Virus record (IMG/VR): IMGVR_UViG_3300017971_000066
Coordinates: 1-52,866 of that record
Source: a virus
Strand: one strand, 5' to 3'
DNA length: 52,866 nucleotides
Made by a program: the position numbers and the translations under genes. Under the pieces are notes generated by a model. The model worked only from the letters and a program-made list of their open reading frames with translations, searched no databases and had not been told where the DNA came from. Of the stretch, positions 26,736-52,866 are shown piece by piece (the first letter of the stretch is position 1; every line of letters starts with the position of its first letter).

Positions 26736-26969
26736 CTACTGCTGATTCTTCCGAATTCTGGTTAATACCTCGTCCACGCTGTCGAACATGGCAAGCTGGT
26801 CCGCTATGAACTTCGCTTTGCCCTGGCCTCGGCTTAATTGGACGCCATCAATTATTCTGTTTTTCTTATCCTGTTCCGCCAGCTCCGCTTCCAGATGCTC
26901 CCGGTACTTCAGGAAGTCTGTAGACATGGAGAGCTTCTTCAGGCTCAGGTACAGATCGTTACTGGCCAT
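26736..26969 (-). CDS. Hypothetical small protein between portal and scaffold (77 aa)
   Basis: The protein is helical and charged (KYREHLEAELAEQDKKNRII; FIADQLAMFDSVDEVLTRI), with no known motif. It is translationally coupled to portal (1-nt stop/start overlap). Small helical proteins at this position occur in many podophages and could assist head assembly. The ~100-bp gap to scaffold carries only a short GTCC-GAAA-GGAC hairpin. Confidence 0.6.
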   Translation of the reverse strand: MASNDLYLSLKKLSMSTDFLKYREHLEAELAEQDKKNRIIDGVQLSRGQGKAKFIADQLAMFDSVDEVLTRIRKNQQ

Positions 26970-29131: not shown

Positions 29132-29369
29132 TTATGCGTCCTGTCTGTTCATCGTGTAGTTCAACCAGCGTTTGGTAACCTGGGCGTGATCGATCAGCAT
29201 TAATCATGTCCCGGTTGGCTATCTTAAAATCTGTTATTGCCCGGCGTGCCCGGACCTCATCTTTCTTGGCCAGTGTCAGCGACTGAAAGAAATTGCCTTG
29301 GTAGTAATACACCCGGCCTTTCATCTGTTTCTTGGTTCTCACTTCCGCCAAGATCGTAATATCCATCAT
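29124..29369 (-). CDS. Hypothetical small protein between TerL and portal (81 aa)
   Basis: The start is taken at ATG 29369 (MMDITILAEVRTK), which overlaps the TerL stop in an ATGA arrangement; an earlier GTG (29375) is less likely. A basic protein with MKGRVYYYQGNFFQSLTLAK followed by helical DEVRARRAITDFKIANRD. No family recognised. Its position suggests a packaging or head-assembly helper. Confidence 0.55.
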   Translation of the reverse strand: MMDITILAEVRTKKQMKGRVYYYQGNFFQSLTLAKKDEVRARRAITDFKIANRDMINADRSRPGYQTLVELHDEQTGRINA

Positions 29370-30847
29370 GACCACCCGGATGCAGCCTTCGCTCTGACTG
29401 CACGCGCTTTCGGCCTCGCGTTCACCAGCAGGATCGGATTAGCAAATGACATCATCAAAGCATCCGCCATGTTGGGTGATTCAATACCCAGTCTGGCCAT
29501 ATCCTGCTTGGACATGATCTGGATCAGGCCGGTCGGGGTCCGCTTTAATGGGATCCTGCACACCTCGGATCTCAGCAGATCCAGCGACTCAATGCCTGAA
29601 TCGAATGAGATCAGCTCATCCGGGTCAAAGTATTTCTTCTTCTCTACCGCTTGGTAGGTTCTGTAAATCCGGTCACGAAGCAGCCAGTAGTATTGTGCGC
29701 GCTTGTTCTTAAACGTCTGCTTGTTGGTCTTCACACCTACATCACCAGCCGCTTCGTAAAGGTCGTCGGGTCTGTCTACGGAATTTGATCCCTTGAACAT
29801 TTCGACTTTAATTCGTTTGGGCATCAGCGCATCTTTAAACTGGCGCCGAAGGCCTACTCCCATTCCGTCACCGTCCCATAAGAACATATCGGGCTTTCGC
29901 TCTTCGCAGTATTCGATGGCCCAGTCTCCGCCTTCATTGATGTCGCCGATGTTTCGCTCTTGAGCATCAAGGATGACAACGCCGTGACGATAAGTAAGGC
30001 CTTTAGCGTCCGAACCATCGTCTGACGGGTCATGAGTGACAATTTCAATACCTCTTGGTTCAAATCCCAGCACCTTATGCGCATCTACGCAGGCATCAAA
30101 CCAATGAGGCATGATGATCGCGTTCTCGACTGTATCGGCATAAGCTCCCAGCCACTTGTGTTCATACGCTGCAGGACTCAGGTTTTCCTCGTCATCTGCG
30201 CGCTCAGATTCAAGACCAGACGCCTCGAACCACTTCTTTGGCATGTCAGTGTAGTTAATCTCGACGATCATGATGTTGTCGTCTTCGTAATAACCGCACC
30301 TGGCTAAATCTTTTTCAGCACGCTTGAGCCACTTCTGACTGATCGGATCCGTGCTGTTGCCCCGGTTCAGGGTGATCCAGATCTCCGGCATTTTGACATC
30401 TTCGCCGGCTATCACTCGTTCGGCATCTGCTGCAGATAATCGAAGACTGGCGGACAATACGCGCAATGTCTCAGCGCTTAGGCTGTCTCCTTCCTCTATC
30501 CAGAGCCCGTCAACACCGGAAAGCATTGACTTCAGGGATCCGATATTCCTGCCCAGGCCGCGGTAGAAGTTCCTGCCGCCACTGGCGTGATAAATGTGGT
30601 TGTTGTCGCTGGTGAATCCCTCGAACCCCAGCCGAACCGCTTCATCAAGCATCAGTCTGTGAACTGACTCGTCAATACTGTTCTGGAATTCACGACCGCA
30701 GCACCAGAGCTGCCCCATGCTCATCCCTGACAGAACGTAGTCAGATACGAACGTGGACTTGGTTGAACCTCGACCACCGACAATGATCTTGATTCTCTTC
30801 GATTTGAGAATCAGCGGCTCAAGTTTTTGAGCGCATTTAATCCTCAT
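29366..30847 (-). CDS. terL: Terminase large subunit
   Basis: The start is ATG 30847 (MRIKCAQKLEPLILKS), overlapping the TerS stop (ATGAGGATTAA); a TTG six codons upstream is less likely. Walker A is GGRGSTKS (24-31). Walker B is LWIEEGD (115-121), with the catalytic Glu following. The coupling-type motif follows at TLNRGNSTDP. The C-terminal RNase-H-like nuclease begins with THDPSDDGSDAKGL and contains ERKPDMFLWDGDGMGVGL. Length 493 aa is normal. It packages concatemeric DNA through the portal. Partnership with a P22-like TerS suggests headful packaging. Confidence 0.92.
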   Translation of the reverse strand: MRIKCAQKLEPLILKSKRIKIIVGGRGSTKSTFVSDYVLSGMSMGQLWCCGREFQNSIDESVHRLMLDEAVRLGFEGFTSDNNHIYHASGGRNFYRGLGRNIGSLKSMLSGVDGLWIEEGDSLSAETLRVLSASLRLSAADAERVIAGEDVKMPEIWITLNRGNSTDPISQKWLKRAEKDLARCGYYEDDNIMIVEINYTDMPKKWFEASGLESERADDEENLSPAAYEHKWLGAYADTVENAIIMPHWFDACVDAHKVLGFEPRGIEIVTHDPSDDGSDAKGLTYRHGVVILDAQERNIGDINEGGDWAIEYCEERKPDMFLWDGDGMGVGLRRQFKDALMPKRIKVEMFKGSNSVDRPDDLYEAAGDVGVKTNKQTFKNKRAQYYWLLRDRIYRTYQAVEKKKYFDPDELISFDSGIESLDLLRSEVCRIPLKRTPTGLIQIMSKQDMARLGIESPNMADALMMSFANPILLVNARPKARAVRAKAASGWS

Positions 30848-31217
30848 CCGGTGCAGTGCCGACAAAAGTAATCATGCCGGTATGTTTGTGCGTGTTCTCG
30901 CTGGTCACGACTTTCTCGACCTTATCCTGCCAGCCGAAGTTATTTTTCAGGTTGAAAATACAGCCGGCAGGGTTCCGCCCAGTGAGCAATCCCAGCTCGA
31001 TTCCATGCTCGACTCTGAGCTTTGCTTTTTTTACTGTGTCAGAAAATTTGTCTTTTTCCCCGTATTCCAGCAATCCCTGTCTGGTCAGATCCAGAGCAAG
31101 GCAGAGTCCAGTAACAGTAGCGGGAAGCTCATCGGCAGCGCATTCAGCGAAGTATCCATCGATCTTCTTCTGCATTTCTGCGACAGTTTTGAATTTGGGT
31201 GGTCTACCCGCGCCCAT
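30837..31217 (-). CDS. terS: Terminase small subunit, P22 gp3-like (126 aa)
   Basis: It begins MGAGRPPKFKTVAEMQKKID and continues VTGLCLALDLTRQGLLEYGE, then AKLRVEHGIELGLLTGRNPA and IFNLKNNFGWQDK: the block order of the small terminases that recognise DNA through a helix-turn-helix-like N-terminal half. It overlaps TerL by 11 nt and the upstream gene by 14 nt, with GGAG 9 nt before the ATG. It probably chooses the pac site; no pac sequence could be recognised. Confidence 0.85.
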   Translation of the reverse strand: MGAGRPPKFKTVAEMQKKIDGYFAECAADELPATVTGLCLALDLTRQGLLEYGEKDKFSDTVKKAKLRVEHGIELGLLTGRNPAGCIFNLKNNFGWQDKVEKVVTSENTHKHTGMITFVGTAPDED

Positions 31218-37402: not shown

Positions 37403-37431
37403 ACATGCTCCACAAAGTTGTAATCGCTCAT
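37399..37431 (-). CDS. 10-codon coupling ORF between primase and the 35-aa protein
   Basis: ATG 37431 overlaps the primase stop (ATGA). It encodes MSDYNFVEHV and stops in an ATGA overlap with the next start. It also carries that gene's GGAG within it. Likely a translational bridge that carries ribosomes from primase into the 35-aa gene rather than a functional peptide. Confidence 0.4.
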   Translation of the reverse strand: MSDYNFVEHV

Positions 37432-38327
37432 TGTGTCACCTCATCAAGATAATCATTGCCAATCGTGTCTGGCACAATCACTTCGCAGCCGATCCCCTTC
37501 AGGTACAACTTGTTGGCCAGCATGTAGGCTGCGCGCTGTCCGGTGAATGTTTTGTCATTGTCCGCCAAGATGATGGCGTGCTGCAGATGGTCTGGTGGAT
37601 CGAATAGCTCCATGCCATTGGCGCTGATCGTAGCTATGCCTGGCAGTTCAAATTCCTGAATACCGGCCAGTGTTGTCTCAATGCCTTCAGCAATCACGCA
37701 GACAGATCCCTTGCCCAAGTAAACAGCTGCCCCGGAGATCGTGCCATCAGCTGGCATGATTTTCTTCTGGCACTCCACGTCTGCTTTCTTACCATCAGCC
37801 AGGTATGTCACATGAAACGATTTGCGACGCATATTCTTGTCACTGATTCTGGCGATCATCGCATCGAACGTGCCGATCTGTTTGCCATTGTGGTAATACG
37901 GGCGCTTCATGTAGCGCAGTGAATTAAACCTGAACGTATTCAAACCACGGCCTTTCAGGTATTGGGAAACAGGATCCATACCAGACAGCTCTAGTGCATG
38001 CCTTGAAACATAGTCCAGCGCTGGCCTTGGGTCTTTCTTTTTTCGCACAGGATCTGGCTCGACGTAACCAACCACTTCTCTCACCTTGGCCGACGCCTGC
38101 TTAAAGTCCAGCTGCAGATAGCGCATGAGTAGATCTATGCCGTCGCTGGGCTTTGTTTCGCATTGATTGCATACCCATGTGCCCTTGCCTTGAAAGTCCA
38201 TAAACCTGAAGCGGTCCTTGCCGCCACACAATGGGCATGGCCCATGCTTACCGGTTAAAAATTCAGGATCCATGTACTGGGACAGAATATTTCGCCATCT
38301 GCCGTGCGCTGCTTGAATGATATTCAT
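37428..38327 (-). CDS. DNA primase with zinc ribbon and Toprim domain (299 aa)
   Basis: N-terminal zinc ribbon CPLCGGKDRFRF...WVCNQC (Cys31, 34, 53, 56). Linker with ALDYVSRHALELSGMDPV. Toprim domain ~205-260: VIAEGIETTLAG (Glu214) and AIILADNDK (Asp256, Asp258). This is the P4-alpha/plasmid-type primase architecture without its own helicase. It lies directly after the helicase gene (4-nt overlap). It would prime replication for the host polymerase. Confidence 0.88.
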   Translation of the reverse strand: MNIIQAAHGRWRNILSQYMDPEFLTGKHGPCPLCGGKDRFRFMDFQGKGTWVCNQCETKPSDGIDLLMRYLQLDFKQASAKVREVVGYVEPDPVRKKKDPRPALDYVSRHALELSGMDPVSQYLKGRGLNTFRFNSLRYMKRPYYHNGKQIGTFDAMIARISDKNMRRKSFHVTYLADGKKADVECQKKIMPADGTISGAAVYLGKGSVCVIAEGIETTLAGIQEFELPGIATISANGMELFDPPDHLQHAIILADNDKTFTGQRAAYMLANKLYLKGIGCEVIVPDTIGNDYLDEVTQ

Positions 38328-39799
38328 GATACTTTCCTTTTTGCGAATGCGATTTGACGTGACTTGATCCAGTTCAGCGTTTCTTCACTGGCTGGTACCC
38401 GTGGAGCATTGCGGTATTTGTTCGGCCATACTCCGAATTTTTCTTTGTACTTGTTGGAGGCCCAGCCTTCCCGGTAGTTGTGCATGTAAGCGTAATGCTT
38501 CAGCTCACCGAAGAATTGCTCTTTCTGCTCTGGCGTGGCGTCTTTGTTCAGCTTCTTTTTCTTCCTCAGCTCGACCAGTTCACCCTCTTCAACTTCCAGC
38601 TGACTCTGCCTGGCTGCCTCGAATCCGCAGGATGGACAGGTTTTTGTCTTGGGCGGTTTCATAAACCCGCATGATGGACATGCTTTCGGTAGCGGCTCGT
38701 CTTCTGGTTTGCGGTCGATCTTGGATCTGTTCTTTCCGTCGTCCAAGTGATCTGGATACTGGTCATCTGGCAAACCGTTGCGCAACATATTGCCGGCATT
38801 GTCCAGAATTATCACGTCGTCTTTGTCAGGATGTGTGCGCAATCCCCTGCCCAGCTTCTGGATGTGGCGCATTAGCGACTTGGTTGGCTGGGCATCGATG
38901 ATACAGCCGACATCTTTCACGCTGAACCCGGTGGCCAGCTTTGCCACAGAACACAGCACGTCGATCTGGCCTTGACGGAATTTTTCAATTTCCTCCTGAC
39001 ACTCAACCTGATCCATGTAGCCATTGACCGAAACAGATTTCACACCTGCCGCTCTGAATTCAGCAGCGAATCGCTCCGCATCTGCAACCCTTGGCGCGAA
39101 AAGGATTGTCTTGCGGCCAGCTGCCAGCTTGAACCAGTGCTTTACGATGTCACCGATCACGCGGGGAGTATATTTCTCACCCGCTTCCGACTTGGAGAAA
39201 TCATCACCCACAGTCTTTACGCCGCTCATGTCAGGAACGTGGTGACTGTAGGCCCGATAGTCGGACAGGAAACCATTGTCGATTAGCCATCTGGTTGATG
39301 GACCGTTGACCAAGTGGCTGTACTGCTTACCCAGTCCTTTGCGCCATGGTGTAGCGCTCAGCCCGATCACTGGTTTTACCGCCATGCGATTCATTGCTTC
39401 ATGAGTTTTATGGCAGATGTGAAATTCGTCGTGAATGATCAAGCGCTCCTGCTGGTAGGCCTTCCAGCCTGCAGGGTCCGCCTTCATGCGTGTCTCGATT
39501 GTCTGGATAGAGCAGACTTGGACAGGCTGCGAGTAGTCCGTGAGGAAGTGATCAGCCTGAATAACGCCAATGTCCTTGATCCCGAAGCTGTTGAACTCGA
39601 CGATGGTCTGGTCAACCAATGTCAGGAACGGCGCTGTGAATAAAACTCCGACGCCCTTGCTCAAAGCATCGTGGATAATATCTGCCGCCAGAACAGTCTT
39701 GCCGAAGCTGGTCATCGCCTGAACCCCAATGTGCGTGTGCCCATCACGCATCGCCTGGTAGATCTCGCGTTTCACTTGGAGCTGGTGGTCGTAAAGCAT
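38324..39799 (-). CDS. Superfamily 2 DEAD/DEAH helicase with zinc ribbons (491 aa)
   Basis: Motif I is AMTSFGKT (28-35), motif II is DEFH (124-127), motif III is SAT (148-150) and motif VI is QKLGRGLR (~330). Two CPSCGF clusters (CPSCGFMKPPKTKTCPSCGF) form a zinc ribbon, followed by a Lys-rich tail that ends in IKSRQIAFAKRKVS. Phage helicases of this kind act as origin-melting or replicative accessory helicases. It has a strong GGGGAGG ribosome binding site and lies beside the candidate origin. Confidence 0.88.
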   Translation of the reverse strand: MLYDHQLQVKREIYQAMRDGHTHIGVQAMTSFGKTVLAADIIHDALSKGVGVLFTAPFLTLVDQTIVEFNSFGIKDIGVIQADHFLTDYSQPVQVCSIQTIETRMKADPAGWKAYQQERLIIHDEFHICHKTHEAMNRMAVKPVIGLSATPWRKGLGKQYSHLVNGPSTRWLIDNGFLSDYRAYSHHVPDMSGVKTVGDDFSKSEAGEKYTPRVIGDIVKHWFKLAAGRKTILFAPRVADAERFAAEFRAAGVKSVSVNGYMDQVECQEEIEKFRQGQIDVLCSVAKLATGFSVKDVGCIIDAQPTKSLMRHIQKLGRGLRTHPDKDDVIILDNAGNMLRNGLPDDQYPDHLDDGKNRSKIDRKPEDEPLPKACPSCGFMKPPKTKTCPSCGFEAARQSQLEVEEGELVELRKKKKLNKDATPEQKEQFFGELKHYAYMHNYREGWASNKYKEKFGVWPNKYRNAPRVPASEETLNWIKSRQIAFAKRKVS

Positions 39800-39814
39800 A
39801 GGCCTCCCCTATGA

Positions 39815-39892
39815 GTATATTAATATAAATATATATATAACCTTCCTTGGCGGAAGATTTTAATATTGGTTCTTGGTTATTGGTTATTGGTT
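39815..39892. other. Candidate replication origin: AT-rich tract plus four 7-bp iterons
   Basis: ATTGGTT CTTGGTT ATTGGTT ATTGGTT occupies 39865-39892 as perfect tandem 7-mers with one varied base. It is flanked at 39815-39840 by an almost pure A/T tract and by a CTTCC-TTGG-CGGAAG hairpin. It sits between the DUF1376 gene and the helicase and primase genes, the usual place for a phage origin. No DnaA box was identified. Confidence 0.5.
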
Positions 39893-39916
39893 AGCATTGG
39901 GTTCGCAATACGGACG

Positions 39917-40249
39917 CTATGCGTTCGCATCACCATTGTTTCTCCATCGTTTTTTTGCGGATGCCCGTGCTTTGTCCGATTTGTCGTGAAATCGCTCTAT
40001 TTCCTGGGTAACTCGCTTGTTTATGTAGCCTTCTGGCGTTTCGTCGTAATACTCCTGCAGTACATAGGCTATGCATTCGCTATGCGTTCGCATACGAATT
40101 TGCTTGGCTACGACCTCAATATCGAGTGGAATTGGACGTTCATGTAAGAATTGCCAGTCGATTAACCGGCGGTAGGCGATATCCTCCAAAGGATCCAGAT
40201 GCGCCGTGTGCGTCTGGTAATCACCTATATTGAAATTGTAGTAATGCAT
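39917..40249 (-). CDS. DUF1376 replication-associated protein (110 aa)
   Basis: MHYYNFNIGDYQTHTAHLDP and LEDIAYRRLIDWQFLHERPI are the defining start of DUF1376, found at the N-terminus of phage replication initiator-like proteins. IEVVAKQIRMR continues a winged-helix-like region, and the C-terminus is basic (ARASAKKRWRNNGDANA). It is short, having only the DUF1376 domain, and lies just before the iterons and the helicase. A role in origin recognition is inferred. Confidence 0.8.
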   Translation of the reverse strand: MHYYNFNIGDYQTHTAHLDPLEDIAYRRLIDWQFLHERPIPLDIEVVAKQIRMRTHSECIAYVLQEYYDETPEGYINKRVTQEIERFHDKSDKARASAKKRWRNNGDANA

Positions 40250-40294
40250 TTGTTATTATTAACCCCGTTACGTTGACCCCGAATTAACGAACAA

Positions 40295-40327
40295 AAACCC
40301 GCTCTGGCTGCCGGCCTGGCGGGTTTT
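40295..40327. terminator. Terminator after the Cro-like gene
   Basis: On the minus strand AACCCGC...GCGGGTT with T-run TTTTTG closes a hairpin enclosing a GC-rich loop. It directly follows the Cro-like stop (40326-40328) and precedes DUF1376, so downstream replication genes would need partial read-through, as in lambda early transcription. A T-run on the other strand also makes it potentially bidirectional. Confidence 0.75.
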
Positions 40328-40505
40328 ATTTTGTCAGCTCATCATAAAGACGCTGGATCTTTTTTACGCCGGGATCAGAAATCCTGCCCTGCCTTAATTT
40401 GTTGTACCAATCACGCTCGACCTGAGCGTTGTCGCACAATTCCTGAATGGTTCCCTTGTAGCTGGGGGCCAATGCCATGACGGCATCAAGTAAGTTTGTC
40501 TTCAT
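40326..40505 (-). CDS. Cro-like helix-turn-helix regulator (59 aa)
   Basis: The gene starts at ATG 40503-40505 and reads MKTNLLDAVMALAPSYKG, then IQELCDNAQVERDWYNKL and RQGRISDPGVKKIQRLYDEL. The segment from IQELCDNAQ to ISDPGVKKIQ is a lambda-type helix-turn-helix whose recognition helix includes VERDWYNKL. It has its own promoter with an operator-like repeat directly upstream, fitting an autoregulated repressor. No CI partner gene was seen. Confidence 0.75.
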   Translation of the reverse strand: MKTNLLDAVMALAPSYKGTIQELCDNAQVERDWYNKLRQGRISDPGVKKIQRLYDELTK

Positions 40506-40537
40506 AGTGTTACCGTGTTGTTTGTGTGTATATCCCG

Positions 40538-40566
40538 ATTATGGAAAAGATTCCATCATCTTGCAA
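40538..40566 (-). promoter_or_regulatory. Leftward promoter of the Cro-like unit
   Basis: On the minus strand -35 TTGCAA (40566-40561) and -10 CATAAT (40543-40538) are separated by exactly 17 bp. The TTGCAA element is itself palindromic and could also serve a rightward promoter (TTGCAA, 16 bp, TAAATT). It lies ~33 bp before the Cro-like start. Confidence 0.7.
40541..40556. promoter_or_regulatory. Operator-like inverted repeat 1
   Basis: ATGGAA-AAGA-TTCCAT: 6-bp perfect arms around a 4-bp centre, overlapping the -10 and spacer of the leftward promoter. A likely binding site for the Cro-like protein. Confidence 0.6.
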
Positions 40567-40612
40567 GCGGCATAATAAATTTTAAATTGGGGGTTGGCAA
40601 GAGGCAAGAGTT

Positions 40613-40628
40613 ATGTAATTATTTACAT
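40613..40628. promoter_or_regulatory. Operator-like inverted repeat 2
   Basis: ATGTAA-TTAT-TTACAT has the same 6-4-6 geometry as the repeat at 40541-40556 and lies just upstream of the first rightward gene, where it would block rightward transcription. The two half-sites share ATGxAA. Confidence 0.55.
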
Positions 40629-40644
40629 GGGAGGTACAACACAA

Positions 40645-40929
40645 ATGAACACCAATCAACACGAATATGCACATCTGGACGCAAAGGACGAGGCCTATCT
40701 TGTCAGTGAAGAGTACCTGGCTGCCTGCAAAGAGCAGAAGTTTGCAGACCGGGTGAAGGATGAAGAAAGCGCCGTTCAGGATGCGTGGGGCGAATTACTT
40801 ATCGATAACCCAGACATCATGACTGACCTGAAGGCCGCTCTTCTGGACCAAGAAAACGCTGATACGGCTGACCTTGGCAAGAGGGTTCTCGCAGCAATGT
40901 CTGAGTGGCTGCACTACGAAGACGATTAA
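40645..40929 (+). CDS. Acidic protein, first gene of rightward recombination operon (94 aa)
   Basis: Start at ATG 40645 (MNTNQHEYAHLDAKDEAYLV), with GGGAGG upstream. An acidic helical protein (FADRVKDEESAVQDAWGELL; DLKAALLDQENADTADLGKR) ending in HYEDD. No family recognised. An acidic early protein of this type could be a DNA mimic or host-interacting factor, but there is no motif to prove it. Confidence 0.6.
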   Translation: MNTNQHEYAHLDAKDEAYLVSEEYLAACKEQKFADRVKDEESAVQDAWGELLIDNPDIMTDLKAALLDQENADTADLGKRVLAAMSEWLHYEDD

Positions 40930-40939
40930 CCGGGGAAGC

Positions 40940-40972
40940 GCCGGCCACCCCACTTGTCAAGACATGGCCGGC
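40940..40972 (+). other. Perfect 8-bp hairpin before a ribosome binding site
   Basis: GCCGGCCA (40940-40947) pairs with TGGCCGGC (40965-40972) around a 17-nt loop. There is no T-run, so it is more likely an mRNA stability or translation-control element. The Shine-Dalgarno of the next gene follows 11 nt later. Confidence 0.65.
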
Positions 40973-40992
40973 ACCAAATTCTGGGAGGAATA

Positions 40993-41229
40993 ATGGATAA
41001 AATTGATGAAATGGTATTGGTGCATATCTGGGAGGGTATGCGCGGTGATATCGCATTCCGTGAATATTATCGCGGAGAATTAAATGGAGTTTATCACGGC
41101 GCGGTGCGTACCAATCCTGAGCTGGCGGAAGCTGCTCATTTCCTCAACATGATCGACTCAAACCTTGTGATTATTGAATACGAAAATGCCTACAAAAAAA
41201 TATACAACACCTACAAAATTGTCGGATAA
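40993..41229 (+). CDS. Hypothetical protein (78 aa)
   Basis: The start is ATG 40993 (MDKIDEMVLVHIWEGMRGDI), with GGGAGGAATA directly before it. Mixed alpha/beta with FREYYRGELNGVYHGAVRTN and a C-terminal strand NLVIIEYENAYKKIYNTY. No family recognised. The 3' end overlaps the next gene in another frame. Confidence 0.6.
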   Translation: MDKIDEMVLVHIWEGMRGDIAFREYYRGELNGVYHGAVRTNPELAEAAHFLNMIDSNLVIIEYENAYKKIYNTYKIVG

Positions 41230-41371
41230 GGACTCATTGATTGAGCCTCCGAAGGACTATCATGAAGAAGAGAAGAGGCCGACACAGCCTAAAAGCGGAA
41301 TGCTTGTCGATGCTGTCAGGGTTTCTTTTATTGCCGCGATTCTTATCGCATTAATCTTAAACCTACTCTAG
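41186..41371 (+). CDS. Small tail-anchored membrane protein (61 aa)
   Basis: From ATG 41186 (MPTKKYTTPTKLSDKDSL), a charged Pro/Lys-rich N-terminus precedes one C-terminal membrane helix (~43-60, VSFIAAILIALILNLL). The ribosome binding site is poor, and the gene overlaps its predecessor by 44 nt, so translation may be coupled. Function unknown. Confidence 0.5.
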   Translation: MPTKKYTTPTKLSDKDSLIEPPKDYHEEEKRPTQPKSGMLVDAVRVSFIAAILIALILNLL

Positions 41372-41379
41372 GAGTTATT

Positions 41380-42201
41380 ATGAACGAATCAAAACCAAGT
41401 GATCTGATTCAGAACGAATCAGCACCAACAGATATCGTACCGAGCAATACGCCCGGTCCGATAACCTATCAACCGCCAACACCAATGCAGCAGCAGCTGG
41501 CACCACTCACACAGGCCATGCTTAACGGCACACTGGATGTAGAAAAAGTCAAAATGCTGCAGGAGATCCAGCGCAACGAGGAAGCCGCACAAGCAGAGCG
41601 CGCATTCAATAGCGCACTGGCGCAATTCAAATCAAACCCACTTACCCTGAAAAGGGATAGGACTGTTGATTACAGTACATCCAAGGGCAGGACCACATAT
41701 AATCATACCTCACTAGGCTATGCACTGTCCGTTGTTAATCCGATACTCAGTAAATACGAGCTGTCGCTGTCATGGCGTACTGTCACAGAGCCTGACGGCA
41801 CTATCATCGTTACCTGCAGACTGTCACATGCCATGGGTCACTTTGAAGAAACCAGCCTGCCAGGCATGCCAGATCAATCTGGTGGCAAGAATGACATTCA
41901 GGCGGTCGGCTCTACCGTGACATACCTGAAGCGCTATACCGCCTTCTCACTGCTGGGTCTGGAAAGTGAAGACGCAGATAACGATGGCGCCAAAGGCGCT
42001 GGCGGCGATACGGTCGAATACATTTCAGACGGACAGGCCAAAACCATTCGTAATCTGATTAAGCAAACCGAATCAGATGAAGCGAAATTCTGCACAGCTA
42101 TTAAAGCTGAATCAGTCGAGCGTATTAATGTCGCCGGCTATCACCAAGCAGTCAACATGCTTAAAAAGAAACTACAGGGAGCAAATAATGCCAAGAGCTA
42201 A
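41380..42201 (+). CDS. erf: ERF-family single-strand annealing protein (273 aa)
   Basis: Residues ~60-205 show the Erf core: QRNEEAAQAERAFNSALAQF, RTTYNHTSLGYALSVVNPIL, SLPGMPDQSGGKNDIQAVGS and TVTYLKRYTAFSLLGLESED. The N-terminal ~45 residues are Pro/Gln-rich and the C-terminal part is helical. Erf rings anneal complementary single strands and circularise or recombine phage DNA. An AGGAG site precedes the ATG. It lies next to the exonuclease and SSB genes, a full annealing-recombination set. Confidence 0.9.
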   Translation: MNESKPSDLIQNESAPTDIVPSNTPGPITYQPPTPMQQQLAPLTQAMLNGTLDVEKVKMLQEIQRNEEAAQAERAFNSALAQFKSNPLTLKRDRTVDYSTSKGRTTYNHTSLGYALSVVNPILSKYELSLSWRTVTEPDGTIIVTCRLSHAMGHFEETSLPGMPDQSGGKNDIQAVGSTVTYLKRYTAFSLLGLESEDADNDGAKGAGGDTVEYISDGQAKTIRNLIKQTESDEAKFCTAIKAESVERINVAGYHQAVNMLKKKLQGANNAKS

Positions 42202-42496
42202 AATGAATCCGATGGCCAAGCTGGCCAGACGCTGCGCCGAGCTGGCAGATCTTGAGGTTGAACTTGAGAGACAGCAGATCGAAGCGGGGGAAGAGCGCGA
42301 GAGACTACAGAAAGAACTGGCAGGACTTCTTGCTCTTAATTGCGAAGACGCCATAGACAGCAACACCCAGATCACTATACAGGCGCGCAAGGATATGGTG
42401 ATTGAGGTTGATTTCACTGCATGGGTTAATAGCGATAAATCGCTTGAAGATAATGACTCTGTTTCTTTCTTTTATCAGCCGGTGGAAACATGGTAA
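42188..42496 (+). CDS. Coiled-coil protein between ERF and exonuclease (102 aa)
   Basis: Start at ATG 42188 (MPRAKMNPMAKLARRCAELA), with GGGAG 6 nt upstream and a 14-nt overlap with ERF. A strong coiled coil (~15-55, LEVELERQQIEAGEERERLQ) is followed by DTITIQARK-like strands (NTQITIQARKDMVIEVDFTA). Function unknown; position suggests an accessory to recombination. Confidence 0.6.
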   Translation: MPRAKMNPMAKLARRCAELADLEVELERQQIEAGEERERLQKELAGLLALNCEDAIDSNTQITIQARKDMVIEVDFTAWVNSDKSLEDNDSVSFFYQPVETW

Positions 42497-43104
42497 TACT
42501 TGATATCGAGCAAGGCTCTGATGAATGGCTGGCCGCTAGGTTGGGAATACCTACGGCCAGCAACTTCGACGCCATCATTACGCCGACCGGGAAAAAGTCT
42601 ACCCAGTTTGCTGGTTATCAGAACAAACTGATAGCGGAGCAGCTGGCAGGCAAACCACTGAACAACTTCAAGTCCGAATGGATGAACCGTGGCAACGAGC
42701 TGGAACCAGAGGCCCGTATGTACTATGAGTTTGTGAAGGACGTTCATGTGGATGAGGTCGGAATTGTATTCAATAATAAACATCATGAGATCGGAGCGAG
42801 CCCTGATGGACTAATTGGCATCGACGGCGGTCTGGAAATAAAGTGCCCAGCACCCCATACGCATGTCGGGTATCTGCTTGCAAACAAGATACCGAACGAA
42901 TATATTCCACAAGTACAGGGAAACATGATGGTAACTGGAAGGAAATGGTGGGACTTTATGAGCTACTGCCCAGAGCTGGCAGAATCAGGCCGGGAGTCGT
43001 TGATCATCCGGGTACCAAGAGACACAGAATACATCAAGAACATGCGCATTTATATGAAGGAATTTCTATCTGGGCTGGCAGAGAAGAAAAGCAAACTAAT
43101 TTAG
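42490..43104 (+). CDS. YqaJ/lambda-exonuclease-type recombinase nuclease (204 aa)
   Basis: QGSDEWLAARLGIPTASNFD is the family start. GASPDGLIGIDGGLEIKCP supplies Asp106 and Glu116-x-Lys118, the active-site residues of lambda Exo and YqaJ proteins. HTHVGYLLANKIPNEYIPQV and NMMVTGRKWWDFMSYCPE follow. It degrades the 5' strand to create single-strand tails for Erf. The ATG overlaps the preceding stop (ATGGTAA). Confidence 0.9.
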   Translation: MVILDIEQGSDEWLAARLGIPTASNFDAIITPTGKKSTQFAGYQNKLIAEQLAGKPLNNFKSEWMNRGNELEPEARMYYEFVKDVHVDEVGIVFNNKHHEIGASPDGLIGIDGGLEIKCPAPHTHVGYLLANKIPNEYIPQVQGNMMVTGRKWWDFMSYCPELAESGRESLIIRVPRDTEYIKNMRIYMKEFLSGLAEKKSKLI

Positions 43105-43254
43105 CCTGGTTGGTTGAGTAAGACCCCAGCGGGCGGTGGGGCCAATAACACCCGCAGCCGAGGATTGGCGCTCCTTTCCGAGGTACTTTTTTTCCTCCAA
43201 GGCCAAGGCCGTCTGGTCCACGACACGGACCTCCATTAACCATAGGAGTATTAC
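43105..43254 (+). other. Intercistronic region with GC hairpin
   Basis: No gene is supported in these 150 bases. CCCCA and TGGGG around GCGGGCGG form a short strong hairpin near 43122-43141, and a run of seven T's occurs around 43188, not adjacent to that stem. AGGAGTATTAC serves the next gene. Confidence 0.5.
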
Positions 43255-43485
43255 ATGAGCAAAACCAAAACAGCATCGATCACTATTGATGGTGATCTTA
43301 TAGAAGCATTCGATATTGTCCGCCAGAACATGATGGATCTGGTACCGGGCATTAATCCCAACAACGCAGAAGTCGTGCGTGCTGCCATGTTTATGGCTGC
43401 AAACAGCATCGAGCGGAAAAAGGCGGGTGCAGCAACTGTTGCAAAGATCGGATCCGGCGGCGAAGGAGTAGCGAACAATGGCTGA
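43255..43485 (+). CDS. Small ribbon-helix-helix-like protein (76 aa)
   Basis: [20 protein letters not shown] is a beta-strand/helix start typical of small ribbon-helix-helix proteins, followed by [21 protein letters not shown] Gly-rich tail overlaps the SSB gene by 8 nt. It could be a local transcription regulator. The family call is tentative. Confidence 0.5.
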
Positions 43486-43897
43486 TCGCGGAGTGAACAA
43501 AGTCATCCTAGTCGGTAGGCTGGGTCAGGATCCAGAAGTGCGTTACATGCAAAATGGTGACGCCGTGGCAAACATATCACTCGCAACCAGTGAGGAATGG
43601 AAGGATAAGAACACTGGCGACAAGAAATCAAAAACCGAATGGCATCGCGTCGTCGTCTACAGGAGACTGGGTGAGATTGCCGGGGAGTACCTGAAAAAAG
43701 GCGCCATGGTTTATTTCGAGGGCAAGCTGCAGACACGCAAATGGCAGGACCAGAACGGCAATGACAAGTACACCACTGAGATCATCGCACACCAGATGCA
43801 AATGCTCGGCGGTAATCAGCAACAGCAATCAGCGCCAGCAGACCAAGGTGCGCCAGCTGGTGATGATGGTGGTTTCGACGACGATATTCCTTTTTAG
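43478..43897 (+). CDS. ssb: Single-stranded DNA-binding protein (139 aa)
   Basis: [58 protein letters not shown] and [20 protein letters not shown] are the canonical bacterial-type OB-fold blocks. The Gln-rich linker ends in the acidic tip FDDDIPF that recruits host replication and repair proteins. A clear AAGGAG precedes the ATG. Confidence 0.95.
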
Positions 43898-45891: not shown

Positions 45892-48800
45892 TCACTGATA
45901 CATTACCTCGCGATATGTTTCCATATACCGGTCCATGATCTTCAGCTCCTGCTCTTCAATTCGTCTGACCAGATCGTCGCGGTCCTTCTTGATGGCATTC
46001 TTCTTCTGTTTTTTCAGTTTGTTCAGCTGACTCTTGGTGAGCTTGTTTGTCCCGAATAGTTTGCGACGCTGCTTGATGTCGTCAAAAATCTTTCTGACCT
46101 GCGTATTATCGCCTTCGCTCTTGGCCCGGTTCACAGCTGCCTTCACATCCTCGATCTCGTAGAAGGCATCATAGAATGAGCGCTTGCGATCAGAAGGACC
46201 GACCTCGCCGATAACTTTCCTGGCAATAGGAATGTCGCGCCATTCCATTTCTGGACCTTGAGTTGCTGCGTTATATATAAACCTGCCACTATCCACAGCA
46301 ACGCGACCAGCAGCACCGGTCAATGTATCTGCAATCATGTCCACCCACTCAGGCGACCAGTCGATCAGTGACTTCTGGGTACCAGGGTTCTTGGTGATTT
46401 CTGCCAGCCATTTAGTGAAGGTCTTATATTCCTCTGGAACATTCTGATAGAACTTCGTGTGATCTGGCTGGCTCTTGTTGTAGTCCGGGTAAAGCGGTCC
46501 GCCGTGCCAGTCTTTGTTCTCTGATATCTTAGTAATCGGATCCGCGATGGTTGGCGTCAGAGTTTGCAGGAATGAGCCATCCTGTATCGGGTTAAAGGCT
46601 TGCAGCGAAGCAGAGAAAACTCTACCAGCAGATTCTGCTACAGAGTATCCATCAATGTTACCGCGTGCGGCATCAGTTGCCTTACCGATCTCCTGACCCA
46701 GAACATGGAATATATTGTAGCCCCATGGCAGTGGTATCTTGGCATAGCCATCGTCAAAGGTACCGGTTGGATCCATGATGATCAGGTTACGCTCTTTCAC
46801 ATGGTCTGGGATCTTGTCGTATTTTGACTCTTCGTCATCATCATCCTGACCCAGAGCCCTGTTTAGCATGTCCAGCGCTGTCGCAAAGCCTACGGTAGCG
46901 AGCAACATACCGCGCAGCTTCCAGTTGCCCTTGGCGAAAATAGCCCGCAGCATGCGCACAGTGCCCTGTATGGATGCGTTATAGAACAGGTAGGCAGAGT
47001 TAAGGACCATGCCCCATTCGCCTTTCCTGTTGAAGTCCACGGTGATCTCTTTAGAAATCCTGGCGGCTTCTTTGGCGCTTAGTCCATGCTCCTTGGCAGA
47101 GATAAAGGTCGATAGCCTGATACCGTTTTCTACAATCGTGTTGTAGTCCTCGATCCACTTGAGCATATCGAAGAATTGTTTCGCGCCAGGCTTCGTGCGA
47201 CGACGCAGATTCGATTCAATGCTCTTCATTAGTGAATCGATATCTTCATGGCTCTGCAGCCAGCCCGTCATGCCGCCAAGTTTTCGGAACTCCCTGAAGT
47301 CATCGGCATACTCAGCGGTTCCGTCACCACGCAGCACGCTACGAATAGCTCGCAGCGCCTTTGGCGCTCTGGCCATGGTGGTCAGCTCCATGTTATTTAC
47401 GTCTGTGTCCGTCAGGTTATATCCAGCGGTCTGCACATCACGGAAGAAGTTTGATATAACGAATTCCGGAGAAAGACTGGTATTGATTGCCGACAGGTAT
47501 CTATTGATCATCATCAGGAAGTTAATCAGTCGATTGCCCTGATCCATGTTCAGATTCTTCATGGCAGTGGCGATGCGTTCGGCATGCTCATTGTCGCTCT
47601 TGAACCAGATGTACTGATTCACGCCGTTGAATTTAACAGCCATCAACTGGTCATCAAGCATATTCTCGCGGCGCTTGGCCACTCCCAGTTTATCGAGATA
47701 AATATCTTCCGGCTTATCAACAACTGACCACATATTGTCATCAGGATTTTCGACCACGAAACGATACATATCCTGAGCAATCTTGTTCTTTTGGCCACGG
47801 ACGATACCAGCCTGCGCATTACCCACCAGATGCGCGATCATATTTTTATAGTCCACAGTCTTTTCAGAGCCGCCCCTGATCTTGCTTGGTTTTCCGCGCA
47901 TATCGAAACCGCGACCCCTGCCTGGCATATCACCAGCAACATCTTTACGGTTCAATGGAACGTAGTATCTGTAGTTTTGACGCCATGCCATTGCTTCTTC
48001 TTCAGTCAGCAGCTCATCGGCTACCAGTTGGTTGACGTGCCTATTGCTGACCTCATCGACAATCTCAGCAACACGGCGCAGCTTGTTGTTGTTGCCATAG
48101 CGTATCAGGATCCCTGCAGCTTCTTCGTTTGACATACCGGACAGCGCCTTGTTCGGACGGTCGGTAACCTCCATAGCCTCGATGTCAGCCAATAGCCTGG
48201 TAAGTCTTGCGTGTTCGCCTTCCAGATTAGCCATCTGCGGAGATCTTGCGGTAGCGCCGGCCTCGCGCAGCTGGGCCATATCAGCCTCTACAACTGATAT
48301 TTCCTCGGTAGTCTGCGCGATGCGTTCGTCTTTTTCCTGCTGGGTAGGGTTCCTGAAGCGCAGCACTTCATTGGCCTCTTCAGCATGTCTGGCGTGTAGG
48401 TATTTTCCTACATCCTCGAACGACATCCCGGTAGCCTTGATTGCGTCCGCCAGTGGTTCAACGTATGCCTGCTCGAAATCCTCGATAACCGCACGGGTTG
48501 CGCCAGGGTAAAGCGTGACAGTGCGCTCGACATCTACGGTATCAGGATTTGCCTCTTTGGCGGCCTCCTGAACCTTGCTCAATGCATGGAATCGATTGTA
48601 GAAAAGCGTCTTCAGCTTGTCGCCAGTGGTGAACGTATCATCGAAGCCGGTTTGCTCTGTGCTGTAATTGGAAGACTCTTCTTCAACGGTGTAGGATTTT
48701 TCACGGACGGTGTATTTCTTCTCGGCGCCCTTCATGACCAGCGAGAATGGAGAAGTCCACTGGTCAGCCATCAGCGCATCAATGACCACGCCATTTTTCA

Positions 48801-51306
48801 CAGCGGCTTGGGCGAGTGACTCAAGTGCAGTAGGAACATTGACCAAGAACATTTCACCCGCACCAGTCTGCCTGGAAAAAGCTCTCGCCTCGGCCAGCAG
48901 TTTACGGCGCTTGCGCATCTTGTTCTGCTCTGCATACAGATCCATAGCTGGGATAGATAGAATGCCGGCCACACCATTACGGTTGATGCTGACCAGCTGC
49001 ATCTGACCTTTATGGTTATCACGCAGCTCTTTGGCGAAGGCCGCCAGTGTATCTGGGCTGTTGATCGTATAACCCAGCAGCGGGTGATCCTTGGTTGGGT
49101 TCTTGCCGACTTCGTAGGAGTCTTTCGGAATGCGCTTGCTGATTACACTCTTGGTGCCATTCTCATCAATGAATCCGTAGGTGTTGCCATTGATAATGAC
49201 ATGGCCTTTGAATCCTTTGAGCTCAGTCTGGAAGACGCCAGTGATTCCGATATCAGCAGAAGACGCGTCCGGATTTCCGGATGGGTGATTGTGCTGCATC
49301 CAGAAACCGTCAGCTTCCAGCGTTTTCATTTGGGCCCGGATATCAGCTAATACCTGCTCTTTGTGTTCTTTGTTATTGAAGATCTGCACAACACCTGGCA
49401 TGCGCGATGTCAAGCCGGTCTGACCTACGATCTGATCGCCCTTGGTGTAGAATACTCGGAATGTTTCGACAGATGGGTTGCGGTATATTTCCGCCAGATC
49501 CGCCAGCTCTTGGTGATTCCTTACGACTTGTCCGGTGAGCTTGGTGGTTCCCCGGTCTTTGAAGTCGGCAGCAATTTGATTGGCGAGTATGGTACCCGAT
49601 CTCGCACTCCATAGAGAAACCAGTCCTTCGGCTTGCTGTCTGGCACGATTGTCAGCGTCGGTTTGTTTTTCAGGGTCAACTTCATACTTGAACTCAGACT
49701 CTACAGTTTCGCGGACCTTTCCTTCCGTTCCTTCTGCATCAACCTGGCTCTCTTCATAAGTTTCCGCAGCTCTGCTTTCTCGCTTGGAGTCCAGTCTGGA
49801 CTGAAGTGCCTGTAATAGTCCATCGATTTGTTCTGCTTCGGCATTTGATAGTTTCTCCTGTGAGTCCAGCCTTCTAATCACGTCGTTGATGTCACGCTTA
49901 ACACCCTCGGCGCCAGTGAAGTGACCATTGAAAGTTATCTGCCCACTAAAACAACCTATACCCCTGCCTTTATCACATTTCAAGCAGTTCCAGCGTTTCT
50001 TTTGACCGGAGTCAACAGGACAGACTTTATCTTTTACAATTATCGGGATGTCTTCAATGACTTCATTGGAGGCACCAAAATTCTTGTCGCCATAAACTGG
50101 CAGCACAACCTGCACCCGTTCAGGCTGATCATGCATCAACTTTTCTTCACGACCACCATTCAGGTTAATAGCCAGCGGCAGATCATTGCCAGCTGCCAGG
50201 TCAACATTACTGTCATCGATAGATAACAGTCTGGTGTTGCGAGCATCCACTTTCTGAAGGAATTCAGGTTTCTTCGAGAACACATGGGTCCGGATATTTT
50301 TCCGGTTCAGCTGGGTGATCATTTCTTGGTGAGCGTCTGTGCCGTCACCGATATCGAACATGCGCAGTGCTGTTGTTTTCCATGCAGCCCCGACGCCATC
50401 TTCTGAAGATTTGAATTCTTCAGCTGCCATGTTGGCGGCACGCACGGGATCGCGCTGCGTCATCAGATCGACCAGCTCGGCCTTGGCCTTGGAAGCTGGC
50501 CAGATGTGACGACCAGCTGTTGCATAACAGAATTTCGCACAGGCCTTGGATGGATCGCAGTTCTGCAAGGAGGAATTCACTGTGAATTGTGGTTTGCCAG
50601 CCTTGCCTAGAATCTTGTTTTTTTCCAGATAACGCCAGCCGCCTTCCCAGCCGTGCTGCTCAAGCATGTTTGCCAGCGTTTTATTCAGAGACTTGGCGTC
50701 TTCGGCTTTGATCTTGCCTTCAGCGACATCGATGATCTCCATGCGGTAGATCAGGCTGCGCTTTACTTCGCGTGCCCATGGGGTGGTTCTGTGAGCCTTG
50801 AGTCTTTCCTTTAGTTCCGGGCTGGCAGCCTTTGCCCAGTGGCGTTTTTCCACACGGCTATCCACATGCTGGGTGGTTACGGAAGCCTCGTAGCCTGTTT
50901 TACTTTCCTCTACGGTCATCAGGTCCAGATCACGGGCCTGCTTGTCGATAAACTCTTCAGTCAGCCTGGTAGACTCTGGTACCTGAATCTGATATTCAGA
51001 GCCTAGATCCTTGATGGTGCCATCAAACAGATCATCTGCAGTGACCACCTCGTCCTCGACAGGCGCTGCCTCAGTCACTTCAGGCATCACCATATCTTCA
51101 ATGACGCCGCCTTTATCACGAATCCTTCCCGCCAAGGTGTTGAAGTCCTCGACTGCCTGCACGATGGTATCATCAATCGCTCGCATGCCAGCCTCTGTCC
51201 GCGTCAGCCCGTCCTGCTGATATTCCTCGGCAAGAGACTGGATCTGCTCCTTGTATTCAGGTTTCAGATCTTTCGCTTTCTTCAGGCACTGGTTGAGCGT
51301 ACTCAT
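45892..51306 (-). CDS. Giant multidomain polyvalent virion protein (1804 aa)
   Basis: Domains read from the sequence: residues ~240-470 resemble a gene-product-88-like region with Cys clusters (CDPSKACAKFCYATAGRHIW, then CLKCDKGRGIGC). Residues ~630-720 form a RadC/JAMM-like domain with QHNHPSGNPDASSAD (His672, His674, Asp ~685). Residues ~830-1150 are charged and helical. Residues ~1240-1600 match the LPD38-type region of large polyvalent proteins (FVISNFFRDVQTAGYNL, LVNxAYLFYNASIQGT-like, PWGYNIFHVLGQEI). A long basic helical C-terminus follows. I infer an injected multifunctional protein. It is separated by 92 nt from M23. Confidence 0.8.
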   Translation of the reverse strand: MSTLNQCLKKAKDLKPEYKEQIQSLAEEYQQDGLTRTEAGMRAIDDTIVQAVEDFNTLAGRIRDKGGVIEDMVMPEVTEAAPVEDEVVTADDLFDGTIKDLGSEYQIQVPESTRLTEEFIDKQARDLDLMTVEESKTGYEASVTTQHVDSRVEKRHWAKAASPELKERLKAHRTTPWAREVKRSLIYRMEIIDVAEGKIKAEDAKSLNKTLANMLEQHGWEGGWRYLEKNKILGKAGKPQFTVNSSLQNCDPSKACAKFCYATAGRHIWPASKAKAELVDLMTQRDPVRAANMAAEEFKSSEDGVGAAWKTTALRMFDIGDGTDAHQEMITQLNRKNIRTHVFSKKPEFLQKVDARNTRLLSIDDSNVDLAAGNDLPLAINLNGGREEKLMHDQPERVQVVLPVYGDKNFGASNEVIEDIPIIVKDKVCPVDSGQKKRWNCLKCDKGRGIGCFSGQITFNGHFTGAEGVKRDINDVIRRLDSQEKLSNAEAEQIDGLLQALQSRLDSKRESRAAETYEESQVDAEGTEGKVRETVESEFKYEVDPEKQTDADNRARQQAEGLVSLWSARSGTILANQIAADFKDRGTTKLTGQVVRNHQELADLAEIYRNPSVETFRVFYTKGDQIVGQTGLTSRMPGVVQIFNNKEHKEQVLADIRAQMKTLEADGFWMQHNHPSGNPDASSADIGITGVFQTELKGFKGHVIINGNTYGFIDENGTKSVISKRIPKDSYEVGKNPTKDHPLLGYTINSPDTLAAFAKELRDNHKGQMQLVSINRNGVAGILSIPAMDLYAEQNKMRKRRKLLAEARAFSRQTGAGEMFLVNVPTALESLAQAAVKNGVVIDALMADQWTSPFSLVMKGAEKKYTVREKSYTVEEESSNYSTEQTGFDDTFTTGDKLKTLFYNRFHALSKVQEAAKEANPDTVDVERTVTLYPGATRAVIEDFEQAYVEPLADAIKATGMSFEDVGKYLHARHAEEANEVLRFRNPTQQEKDERIAQTTEEISVVEADMAQLREAGATARSPQMANLEGEHARLTRLLADIEAMEVTDRPNKALSGMSNEEAAGILIRYGNNNKLRRVAEIVDEVSNRHVNQLVADELLTEEEAMAWRQNYRYYVPLNRKDVAGDMPGRGRGFDMRGKPSKIRGGSEKTVDYKNMIAHLVGNAQAGIVRGQKNKIAQDMYRFVVENPDDNMWSVVDKPEDIYLDKLGVAKRRENMLDDQLMAVKFNGVNQYIWFKSDNEHAERIATAMKNLNMDQGNRLINFLMMINRYLSAINTSLSPEFVISNFFRDVQTAGYNLTDTDVNNMELTTMARAPKALRAIRSVLRGDGTAEYADDFREFRKLGGMTGWLQSHEDIDSLMKSIESNLRRRTKPGAKQFFDMLKWIEDYNTIVENGIRLSTFISAKEHGLSAKEAARISKEITVDFNRKGEWGMVLNSAYLFYNASIQGTVRMLRAIFAKGNWKLRGMLLATVGFATALDMLNRALGQDDDDEESKYDKIPDHVKERNLIIMDPTGTFDDGYAKIPLPWGYNIFHVLGQEIGKATDAARGNIDGYSVAESAGRVFSASLQAFNPIQDGSFLQTLTPTIADPITKISENKDWHGGPLYPDYNKSQPDHTKFYQNVPEEYKTFTKWLAEITKNPGTQKSLIDWSPEWVDMIADTLTGAAGRVAVDSGRFIYNAATQGPEMEWRDIPIARKVIGEVGPSDRKRSFYDAFYEIEDVKAAVNRAKSEGDNTQVRKIFDDIKQRRKLFGTNKLTKSQLNKLKKQKKNAIKKDRDDLVRRIEEQELKIMDRYMETYREVMYQ

Positions 51307-51653
51307 TGAATAATCCTCGTTTGTATTGCTGCTGCAATGATAGACAATAATTCGTCGTCTTCACGCATTAGTTGTTCTTTTCTGAGTGCTTCGTCAGTGA
51401 TTGGATAGTATTCACGATGAACGAATGGGAATCGGCGCCCACCATGTCTGGCCTCGATGACTTCTTCTACTGGAATATCACCACAGCCTACCCAGCCATT
51501 GGTGTAATATTCGGTTACGCAGGGCAGACCCCACGCCCAGTTGACTGCGCCATGACCAACACCAGCGCCTGGTGGCGGCTCTACCGGTGTCGTCGCTTCT
51601 GGGACATTCGGCCCGTAGGCTAGGGCACCGTAGCCTAAGTAACCGAATGCCAT
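51303..51653 (-). CDS. Hypothetical virion protein (116 aa)
   Basis: Begins MAFGYLGYGALAYGPNVPEA, Gly/Tyr/Ala-rich with a Pro-rich linker, then AVNWAWGLPCVTEYYTNGWV, and ends in a charged helix. No family recognised. It overlaps the 1804-aa start by 4 nt, implying coupled translation, and may be a partner of that protein. Confidence 0.6.
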   Translation of the reverse strand: MAFGYLGYGALAYGPNVPEATTPVEPPPGAGVGHGAVNWAWGLPCVTEYYTNGWVGCGDIPVEEVIEARHGGRRFPFVHREYYPITDEALRKEQLMREDDELLSIIAAAIQTRIIQ

Positions 51654-51988: not shown

Positions 51989-52866
51989 TTACAACTCGTA
52001 TTGGATGTTAATTGCGCCAGCGTCAAAGGTATCTGTGCCGTTGACCGTGGTAATTCTAACGATATCAATAGCGCCAGATAACCCACTGTGGCCACCTGCT
52101 GTCTGGTGGAATTTAGTATTACCGTTTCCAAGCATACCGGTACAGGTCCAGACATGGTTGGTGCCATCTTCCAAACATAGCTCAAAATGCCCTGAATGAG
52201 TATCACCTGCATTATTTATATAAACATTAAAGCCCGCTGTAGATGAAGCAGTCGCCAGTGTAGTAGCACCAAAAATAATGGAACTTGCTGTATATCCGCT
52301 GGTTTGCGGCGTACTTGATGTGCCGACCTGTAAAAGGAGATCGCTTGTTCCACTGGTAGAAACGCCTGAAAACATGACCTTTATGCACTTAACGTTTGCT
52401 GGAATAGTGAAGTCTATAGATGTTCCTGATGTTGAAGCCTGCTCTGTGCCTAATGTAATTAGGCCATTACCAGCAGTAATAGCATCATCCACATACTTCT
52501 TATTTGGGATGTCATCATCAGCAGTAACTAAGTTTTCATAGTTAGTAACCGCACTAACATTCAATGTGCCATCTGTTTCAATGGCGAAACCACTCATCTG
52601 ATGCTTAATGCCTGAAGTCGGTATATAAACACCCCATGAAGTTCCGGGCAGCGTACCTTGGTAATCACCGTAGAAAAGAATAGCATTGCCAATAGCCGTT
52701 GTGGGAGAAGTAGTACGGTCGTTATCGATACGAGAAAGAACGCCATAAGCAGTGCTAATATTTCCAGCACCTTCATCTATTTCGACTTCAGAGTATGTAC
52801 CATACGCATTTGCAGTCGTACCTGTGGCTGCTGACTGTTTAAGAACTTTATTGTAAGAACCATTAG
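51989..52866 (-). CDS. Large tail fibre protein, C-terminal part (continues from 2683-1 across the join)
   Basis: This is the 3' end of the gene that starts at 2683. The frame is open through 52866 and matches the codons at 1-123. It contains AIETDGTLNVSAVTNYENLV then TADDDIPNKKYVDDAI, a junction seen in the smaller fibre, followed by a C-terminal ~160-residue beta domain (SIDFTIPANVKCIKVMFSG; FHQTAGGHSGLSGAIDIVRI) ending in GAINIQYEL. The C-terminal domain is probably the receptor-binding tip (inference). Confidence 0.85.
   Translation of the reverse strand, partial: NGSYNKVLKQSAATGTTANAYGTYSEVEIDEGAGNISTAYGVLSRIDNDRTTSPTTAIGNAILFYGDYQGTLPGTSWGVYIPTSGIKHQMSGFAIETDGTLNVSAVTNYENLVTADDDIPNKKYVDDAITAGNGLITLGTEQASTSGTSIDFTIPANVKCIKVMFSGVSTSGTSDLLLQVGTSSTPQTSGYTASSIIFGATTLATASSTAGFNVYINNAGDTHSGHFELCLEDGTNHVWTCTGMLGNGNTKFHQTAGGHSGLSGAIDIVRITTVNGTDTFDAGAINIQYEL
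52744..52866. repeat. Terminal direct repeat, copy 2 (assembly overlap)
   Basis: Identical to 1-123; removing either copy gives a 52,743-bp circle with an intact fibre gene. Confidence 0.95.

Follow-up and report, generated by a model that had tools for sequence, protein, structure and literature searches.

The 1804-residue product of a single late gene, P0001, is a phage polyvalent protein in which three unrelated domains, GP88, RadC and LPD38, are carried in one open reading frame encoded among the virion and late genes. We favor, at a probability of roughly 0.7, a reading in which this LPD38-type protein couples a carrier that would be ejected from the virion with exchangeable GP88 and RadC cargo that would act inside the bacterium as infection begins. 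The analysis, based on a window of 52,866 nucleotides that covers the whole of IMG/VR virus record IMGVR_UViG_3300017971_000066 (Table 1), shows by computation which domains the protein contains, that its catalytic residues are invariant, that its modules are exchanged and that its gene lies among the late genes.

The first 123 bases of the window recur exactly as its last 123 (52744-52866), and from this direct terminal repeat the window can be recognised as an entire phage genome, about 52.7 kb long. The frame of P0001 spans exactly 1804 amino acids on the minus strand, the plus strand being full of stops, in agreement with a preliminary description of the DNA that had proposed a single late-operon gene of this length and had given no strand. 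P0001 is the last large gene of a same-strand late module comprising terminase, portal, major head protein and SU10-type adaptor, and is preceded across the circular junction by a tail-fibre gene and then two small genes. The frames at 2-2683 and 51989-52864 together form a single tail protein that spans the junction; it is about 1145 aa long and has a weak Mtd_N match close to its N-terminus. The early region (37428-43897) encodes a primase (zinc ribbon and Toprim), a DEAD/ResIII helicase, an ERF recombinase, a YqaJ exonuclease and SSB. A second giant late gene (9179-13885, minus strand) encodes 1568 aa, shares 39% identity with a "structural protein" from Pseudomonas phage 8P and is DNA methyltransferase-like at residues 1070-1301 (phrog_757, E 1e-36); its product is possibly another injected polyvalent protein.

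Table 1. Features of the polyvalent protein gene and its late module (window positions; residues are those of P0001)
Feature	Positions	Strand	Basis or remark
Polyvalent protein gene P0001, 1804 aa	45892..51306	minus	start codon overlaps stop of upstream gene
Small gene adjoining P0001 upstream	51303..51653	minus	4-base overlap with polyvalent gene
Small gene downstream of P0001	45365..45799	minus	weak matches to phage metallo-endopeptidase/endolysin families
Helical region, residues 86-229	50620..51051	minus	co-conserved ahead of GP88 domain in other giant ORFs; helices in model
Divergent GP88 domain, residues 230-456	49939..50619	minus	profile chain and fold; predicted beta/alpha barrel-like
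Cys cluster I, C-x5-C-x3-C then YA, residues 250-260	50527..50559	minus	invariant in 29 relatives
Cys cluster II (CP...C-x2-C...C), residues 429-452	49951..50022	minus	invariant in giant-protein clade
RadC-type JAB domain, residues 573-718	49153..49590	minus	profile, fold, motif
Metal motif HNHPSGNPDASSAD, residues 672-685	49252..49293	minus	plus E614 at 49465-49467
Second, degenerate JAB copy, residues 743-843	48778..49080	minus	profiles; strand/helix order in model; without HxH
Conserved carrier module, residues 902-1804	45895..48603	minus	Pfam, PHROG, tblastn; model pLDDT 90.6
LPD38 (PF18857), residues 1494-1694	46225..46827	minus	Pfam
Terminase	29366-30865	same as P0001	
Portal	26969-29131	same as P0001	
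Major head protein	24730-25716	same as P0001	
SU10-type adaptor	23764-24435	same as P0001	

The C-terminal half of P0001 is widely distributed among phages. LPD38 is matched at 132.9 bits (E 1.9e-38) over a Pfam cut-off of 27; the preliminary description had anticipated this domain, at residues 1240-1600, and its actual location is more C-terminal. The profile phrog_14770 covers residues 905-1795 (E 1e-141). In tblastn searches with P0001, 147-149 phage records matched, among the matches listed through the C-terminal half only and mostly across residues ~1046-1723; these include phages of Vibrio, Burkholderia, Bacillus and Bacteroides and Stx-type phages of Escherichia, among others. A C-terminal half common to ~150 phage records and an N-terminal half matched in none of them by tblastn fit an arrangement of carrier plus cargo. 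In several of the phages matched by tblastn the carrier gene is the last of the virion module. A scan of IMG/VR with the carrier drew upwards of 590 relatives, and 80 of these were retained. AlphaFold2 modelled residues 890-1804 with high confidence (pTM 0.86; pLDDT in Table 1), and comparison of this model with the PDB gave no solved structure by sequence and no convincing match by fold, the best Foldseek E being 0.34 and the best VIA Z of 9 extending over a single 65-residue helical stretch. Several different phages (L007, L006, L011; PMC9144972) have PAPS reductase-like genes close to their giant carrier gene.

The two cargo domains fall just short of their Pfam cut-offs in P0001 itself. 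RadC (PF04002) scores 21.2 bits against a cut-off of 22.1, and GP88 (PF17338) 18.3 bits for the whole protein and 21.6 for the domain against 24.4. Relatives exceed both thresholds, with RadC at 75.1 bits in locus L256 and 51.9 in L155 and GP88 at 29.2 in L155, so that the sub-cut-off matches in P0001 are not chance. Structure prediction and profile comparison likewise bear out the domains first proposed from the letters, the JAB region resembling RadC and the GP88 region resembling phage GP88 proteins. The metal ligands H672, H674 and D685 stand where the preliminary description had read them, with E614 and S682 now added, and its GP88-like cysteine clusters near residues 240-470 correspond to all but one of the eight cysteines in P0001 (C250, C256, C260, C429, C441, C444 and C452; the exception is C7).

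Judged by sequence and predicted structure, the RadC region is a true RadC-type JAB domain with an intact JAMM motif. A profile built from 65 sequences of the module matches the RadC structure 2qlc (E 1.1e-11), which is also the best Foldseek match of the region's model (E 8.8e-6), and E614, H672, N673, H674, P675, S682 and D685 are invariant in all 65. The module further contains a second JAB copy that the earlier description had missed: in almost all relatives a profile of residues 740-880 also picks up the first copy, the RadC profile matches residues 738-822 of P0001, and the order strand-strand-helix-strand-helix-strand is repeated in the model. These cross-matching profiles and the repeated order of strands and helices indicate a tandem JAB whose second copy has lost its HxH. 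The same module of ~280 residues occurs on a conjugative Nitrosomonas plasmid (31% identity, E 5e-34) in protein WP_107787995.1, which adjoins a zincin-type protein and the traI relaxase region; this protein shares the whole module, the degenerate copy included, but stands alone, without fusion to a virion carrier. Across 79 phage loci the position of the module varies, and 24 of these loci encode the carrier in the same frame as well. A tblastn search of annotated phages with the RadC region found no match.

What such a domain might do in the cell depends on which JAB lineage it belongs to. The literature does not agree on the function of RadC itself; for RadC domains, nucleic-acid processing has been predicted and a groove for a ubiquitin tail argued to be absent (PMC5512222). 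We adopt from that work, as an assumption, the view that the RadC cargo would process nucleic acid (PMC5512222). A different role is conceivable given the intact E/HxH/S/D motif: the module could be a protease that clips the polyvalent protein itself after ejection, or one that strips ubiquitin-like tags from host defence proteins (CBASS/Bub-type) in the manner of JAMM isopeptidases, and fold matches to JAMM proteases, Cap3 and BubCD among them, do exist at Z 7.5-9.4. We regard this as unlikely, since the same model superposes on Chlorobium RadC (2qlc) with a VIA Z of 16.4 (rmsd 1.9 over 117 residues), as against at most 9.4 for the ubiquitin-type JAMM proteases, since the groove is argued to be missing from RadC, and since the RadC module also occurs among the genes of conjugative elements. 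By the same fold comparison and published argument (PMC5512222), of the two roles offered in the preliminary description, protecting incoming DNA or editing host proteins, the latter becomes the less likely. Searches of P0001 with Pfam, PHROGs and NCBIfam detected no metallopeptidase domain for cargo release.

The more N-terminal cargo is, by a chain of profiles and by predicted fold, a divergent GP88 domain. A search seeded with P0001 and L155 gathered 56 loci, about 17 of them in giant ORFs and the rest mostly stand-alone GP88 proteins, and a single iterated profile joins the two kinds; in the combined alignment the tails of the stand-alone proteins were shortened. PF17338 is matched by all 29 GP88-family sequences scanned, and C250, C256 and C260, the following YA, R315, D318, G320, D321, K345 and S362 are invariant throughout them. 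In a BFVD fold search, the matches to the model included phage proteins carrying the name "Gene product 88 domain-containing"; one had E 1.2e-23 and another E 1e-3 with TMt 0.65. The domain thus shares with the GP88 family a CY(A/G) three-cysteine motif, an R..D.GD motif and a predicted beta/alpha fold, and is set apart by its extra four-cysteine cluster and its fusion into a giant protein. A scan of species genomes of bacteria and archaea, ~85,000 in all, turned up just four loci, so that the clade appears to be essentially viral. PF17338 had no match in 249 Bacillota genomes, but the controls gave no signal in that scan either, and it carries no weight as evidence of absence. Residues 1-463 found no tblastn match in annotated phages, and the GP88 domain alone, searched in phages and plasmids, drew chance-level matches only. 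Comparison of GP88 profiles with PDB sequences gave nothing above chance and no solved structure, and a literature search for phage GP88 function found nothing.

GP88 is a family without known function, for which DUF5131 and the radical SAM enzymes are possible distant kin. We infer that this domain is probably an enzyme of the iron-sulfur or zinc kind, built on a partial beta/alpha barrel and perhaps akin to the radical SAM enzymes; three hints, none decisive, suggest that it may be a radical-SAM-like iron-sulfur barrel. The predicted structure matches QueE with Z 7.5 over 181 residues, a value that chance arrangements can also reach. When a canonical-type GP88 profile is aligned with radical SAM enzymes, their Cys loop and GGE motif fall in register with its cysteines and G-D motif (P 0.0011; reversed control 0.092). 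Profiles of GP88 and DUF5131 align in the right register with P 0.001-0.003 for larger alignments, against 0.2-0.6 for reversed controls, and with 0.03-0.35 for smaller ones, which is suggestive of a kinship that we do not claim. Filing GP88 as a member of the radical SAM superfamily was rejected, its spacing being C-x5-C-x3-C and not the canonical CxxxCxxC. That noncanonical spacing, along with a weak resemblance of cluster II to the zinc ribbon of ribosomal protein L37Ae (E 0.03), lends some credence to GP88 being here a zinc-binding, nucleic-acid-binding domain rather than an iron-sulfur enzyme; set against the QueE match and the in-register radical SAM alignment, we consider this a tentative but serious possibility, somewhat short of even odds.

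The three modules are combined and recombined across loci. All of them recur in L261, in the order RadC-GP88-carrier, and in L310, a contig of Endozoicomonas acroporae, in the order seen in P0001, while GP88 and RadC occur without a detectable carrier match in L155, L256, L263, L264, L265 (some truncated) and L312, the last a contig of a bacterial genome. This recurrence in differing orders and partial sets indicates an architecture that is rare, not unique, and modules that are shuffled; the exact combination, which at first could not be placed, occurs elsewhere too. Among the 80 loci drawn by the carrier alone, RadC is present in six and GP88 in none, and in 50 records of LPD38 relatives PF17338 appears solely as separate GP88 genes, in two. 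Giant relatives also hold ART-PolyVal, ddrB-ParB and LPD22, which are typical polyvalent cargo. In L313 (Anaerovibrio slackiae), stand-alone RadC-type (2860-3648) and GP88-type (9830-10732) genes lie about 6 kb apart, a spacing that may mean that the two modules travel together even when unfused.

Podovirus giant internal proteins function in ejection, and the largely helical carrier shows high conservation, so one might regard the N-terminal half as mere packing or structural virion material, an ejection-channel protein whose domains are inactive remnants. The invariance of the active-site residues and of all seven cysteines at 30-50% identity, and the swapping of modules as intact units, make this highly unlikely.

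P0001 resembles the LPD38 polyvalent proteins of phages (PMC5512222) in its large size and multiple domains, its LPD38 at the C-terminal end, its late-gene location and its unrelated enzyme domains. The survey of Iyer et al. (2017) had LPD38 confined to polyvalent proteins of the phage type and RadC to those of conjugative elements, and made no mention of GP88 (PMC5512222); P0001, unlike the proteins described there, has both RadC and GP88 alongside LPD38. Relatives by carrier are the "DarB-like antirestriction" proteins of Bcep22-like phages, JC1 gp69 and BcepMigl gp69, which share the carrier and the position as last virion-module gene, but which are much larger and have no detectable match to the GP88/RadC half. 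Methylase-helicase domains are the defining feature of DarB from phage P1; searches of P0001 with Pfam, PHROGs and NCBIfam returned neither a methylase nor a helicase domain, and an identity with DarB was thus rejected.

These Bcep22-like relatives bear on whether P0001 is a virion protein, as originally proposed. JC1 gp69, a carrier homologue, was recovered from CsCl-purified virions with 51 unique peptides and the second-highest proteomics score after the major capsid protein (PMC9144972). The proposal is consequently supported by gene position and by a homologue from another phage, the JC1-type BcepMigl gp69 being only ~23% identical to the P0001 carrier over ~740 residues. Late-module position and the proteomics of this relative together make it likely that P0001 is packed in the virion and injected with the DNA. 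They also speak against P0001 being made early inside the cell and never entering the virion, an idea that would have to accommodate its place as the last large gene on the strand of the late module, the same placement of the carrier gene in relatives and the presence of the JC1 homologue in virions, and that we consider very improbable indeed.

Under the reading that we favor, of an ejected carrier with exchangeable cargo, the carrier half of ~900 residues would be taken up into the virion and leave it together with the DNA, as position and homology suggest, whereupon the N-terminal cargo would act in the newly infected cell. The first cargo would be the divergent GP88 domain, a putative iron-sulfur or zinc enzyme, and the second the RadC-type JAB metalloenzyme, with its intact predicted active site, joined to the degenerate JAB copy. 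We infer the enzyme activities, substrates and catalysis of P0001 from these identities, and the most likely role of the cargo would be to process or protect incoming nucleic acid against host defence. A more specific version, in which the virion delivers a radical-SAM-like GP88 together with the tandem RadC so that either nucleic acid or some component of host defence is modified ahead of any phage gene expression, we hold to be doubtful.

The domains themselves are already in databases, and UniProt has phage proteins named RadC or GP88 in long chains. What is new is the repeated placement of RadC on a phage LPD38 carrier, the use of GP88 as polyvalent cargo and the tandem JAB. A module that had been assigned to conjugative elements is thus regularly loaded onto a phage LPD38 carrier, and GP88 joins the list of polyvalent cargo. 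Given the confident carrier model and the invariant residues, packaging and enzyme activity can be tested directly, and if GP88 is a radical-SAM-like enzyme, an orphan phage family would gain a chemistry.
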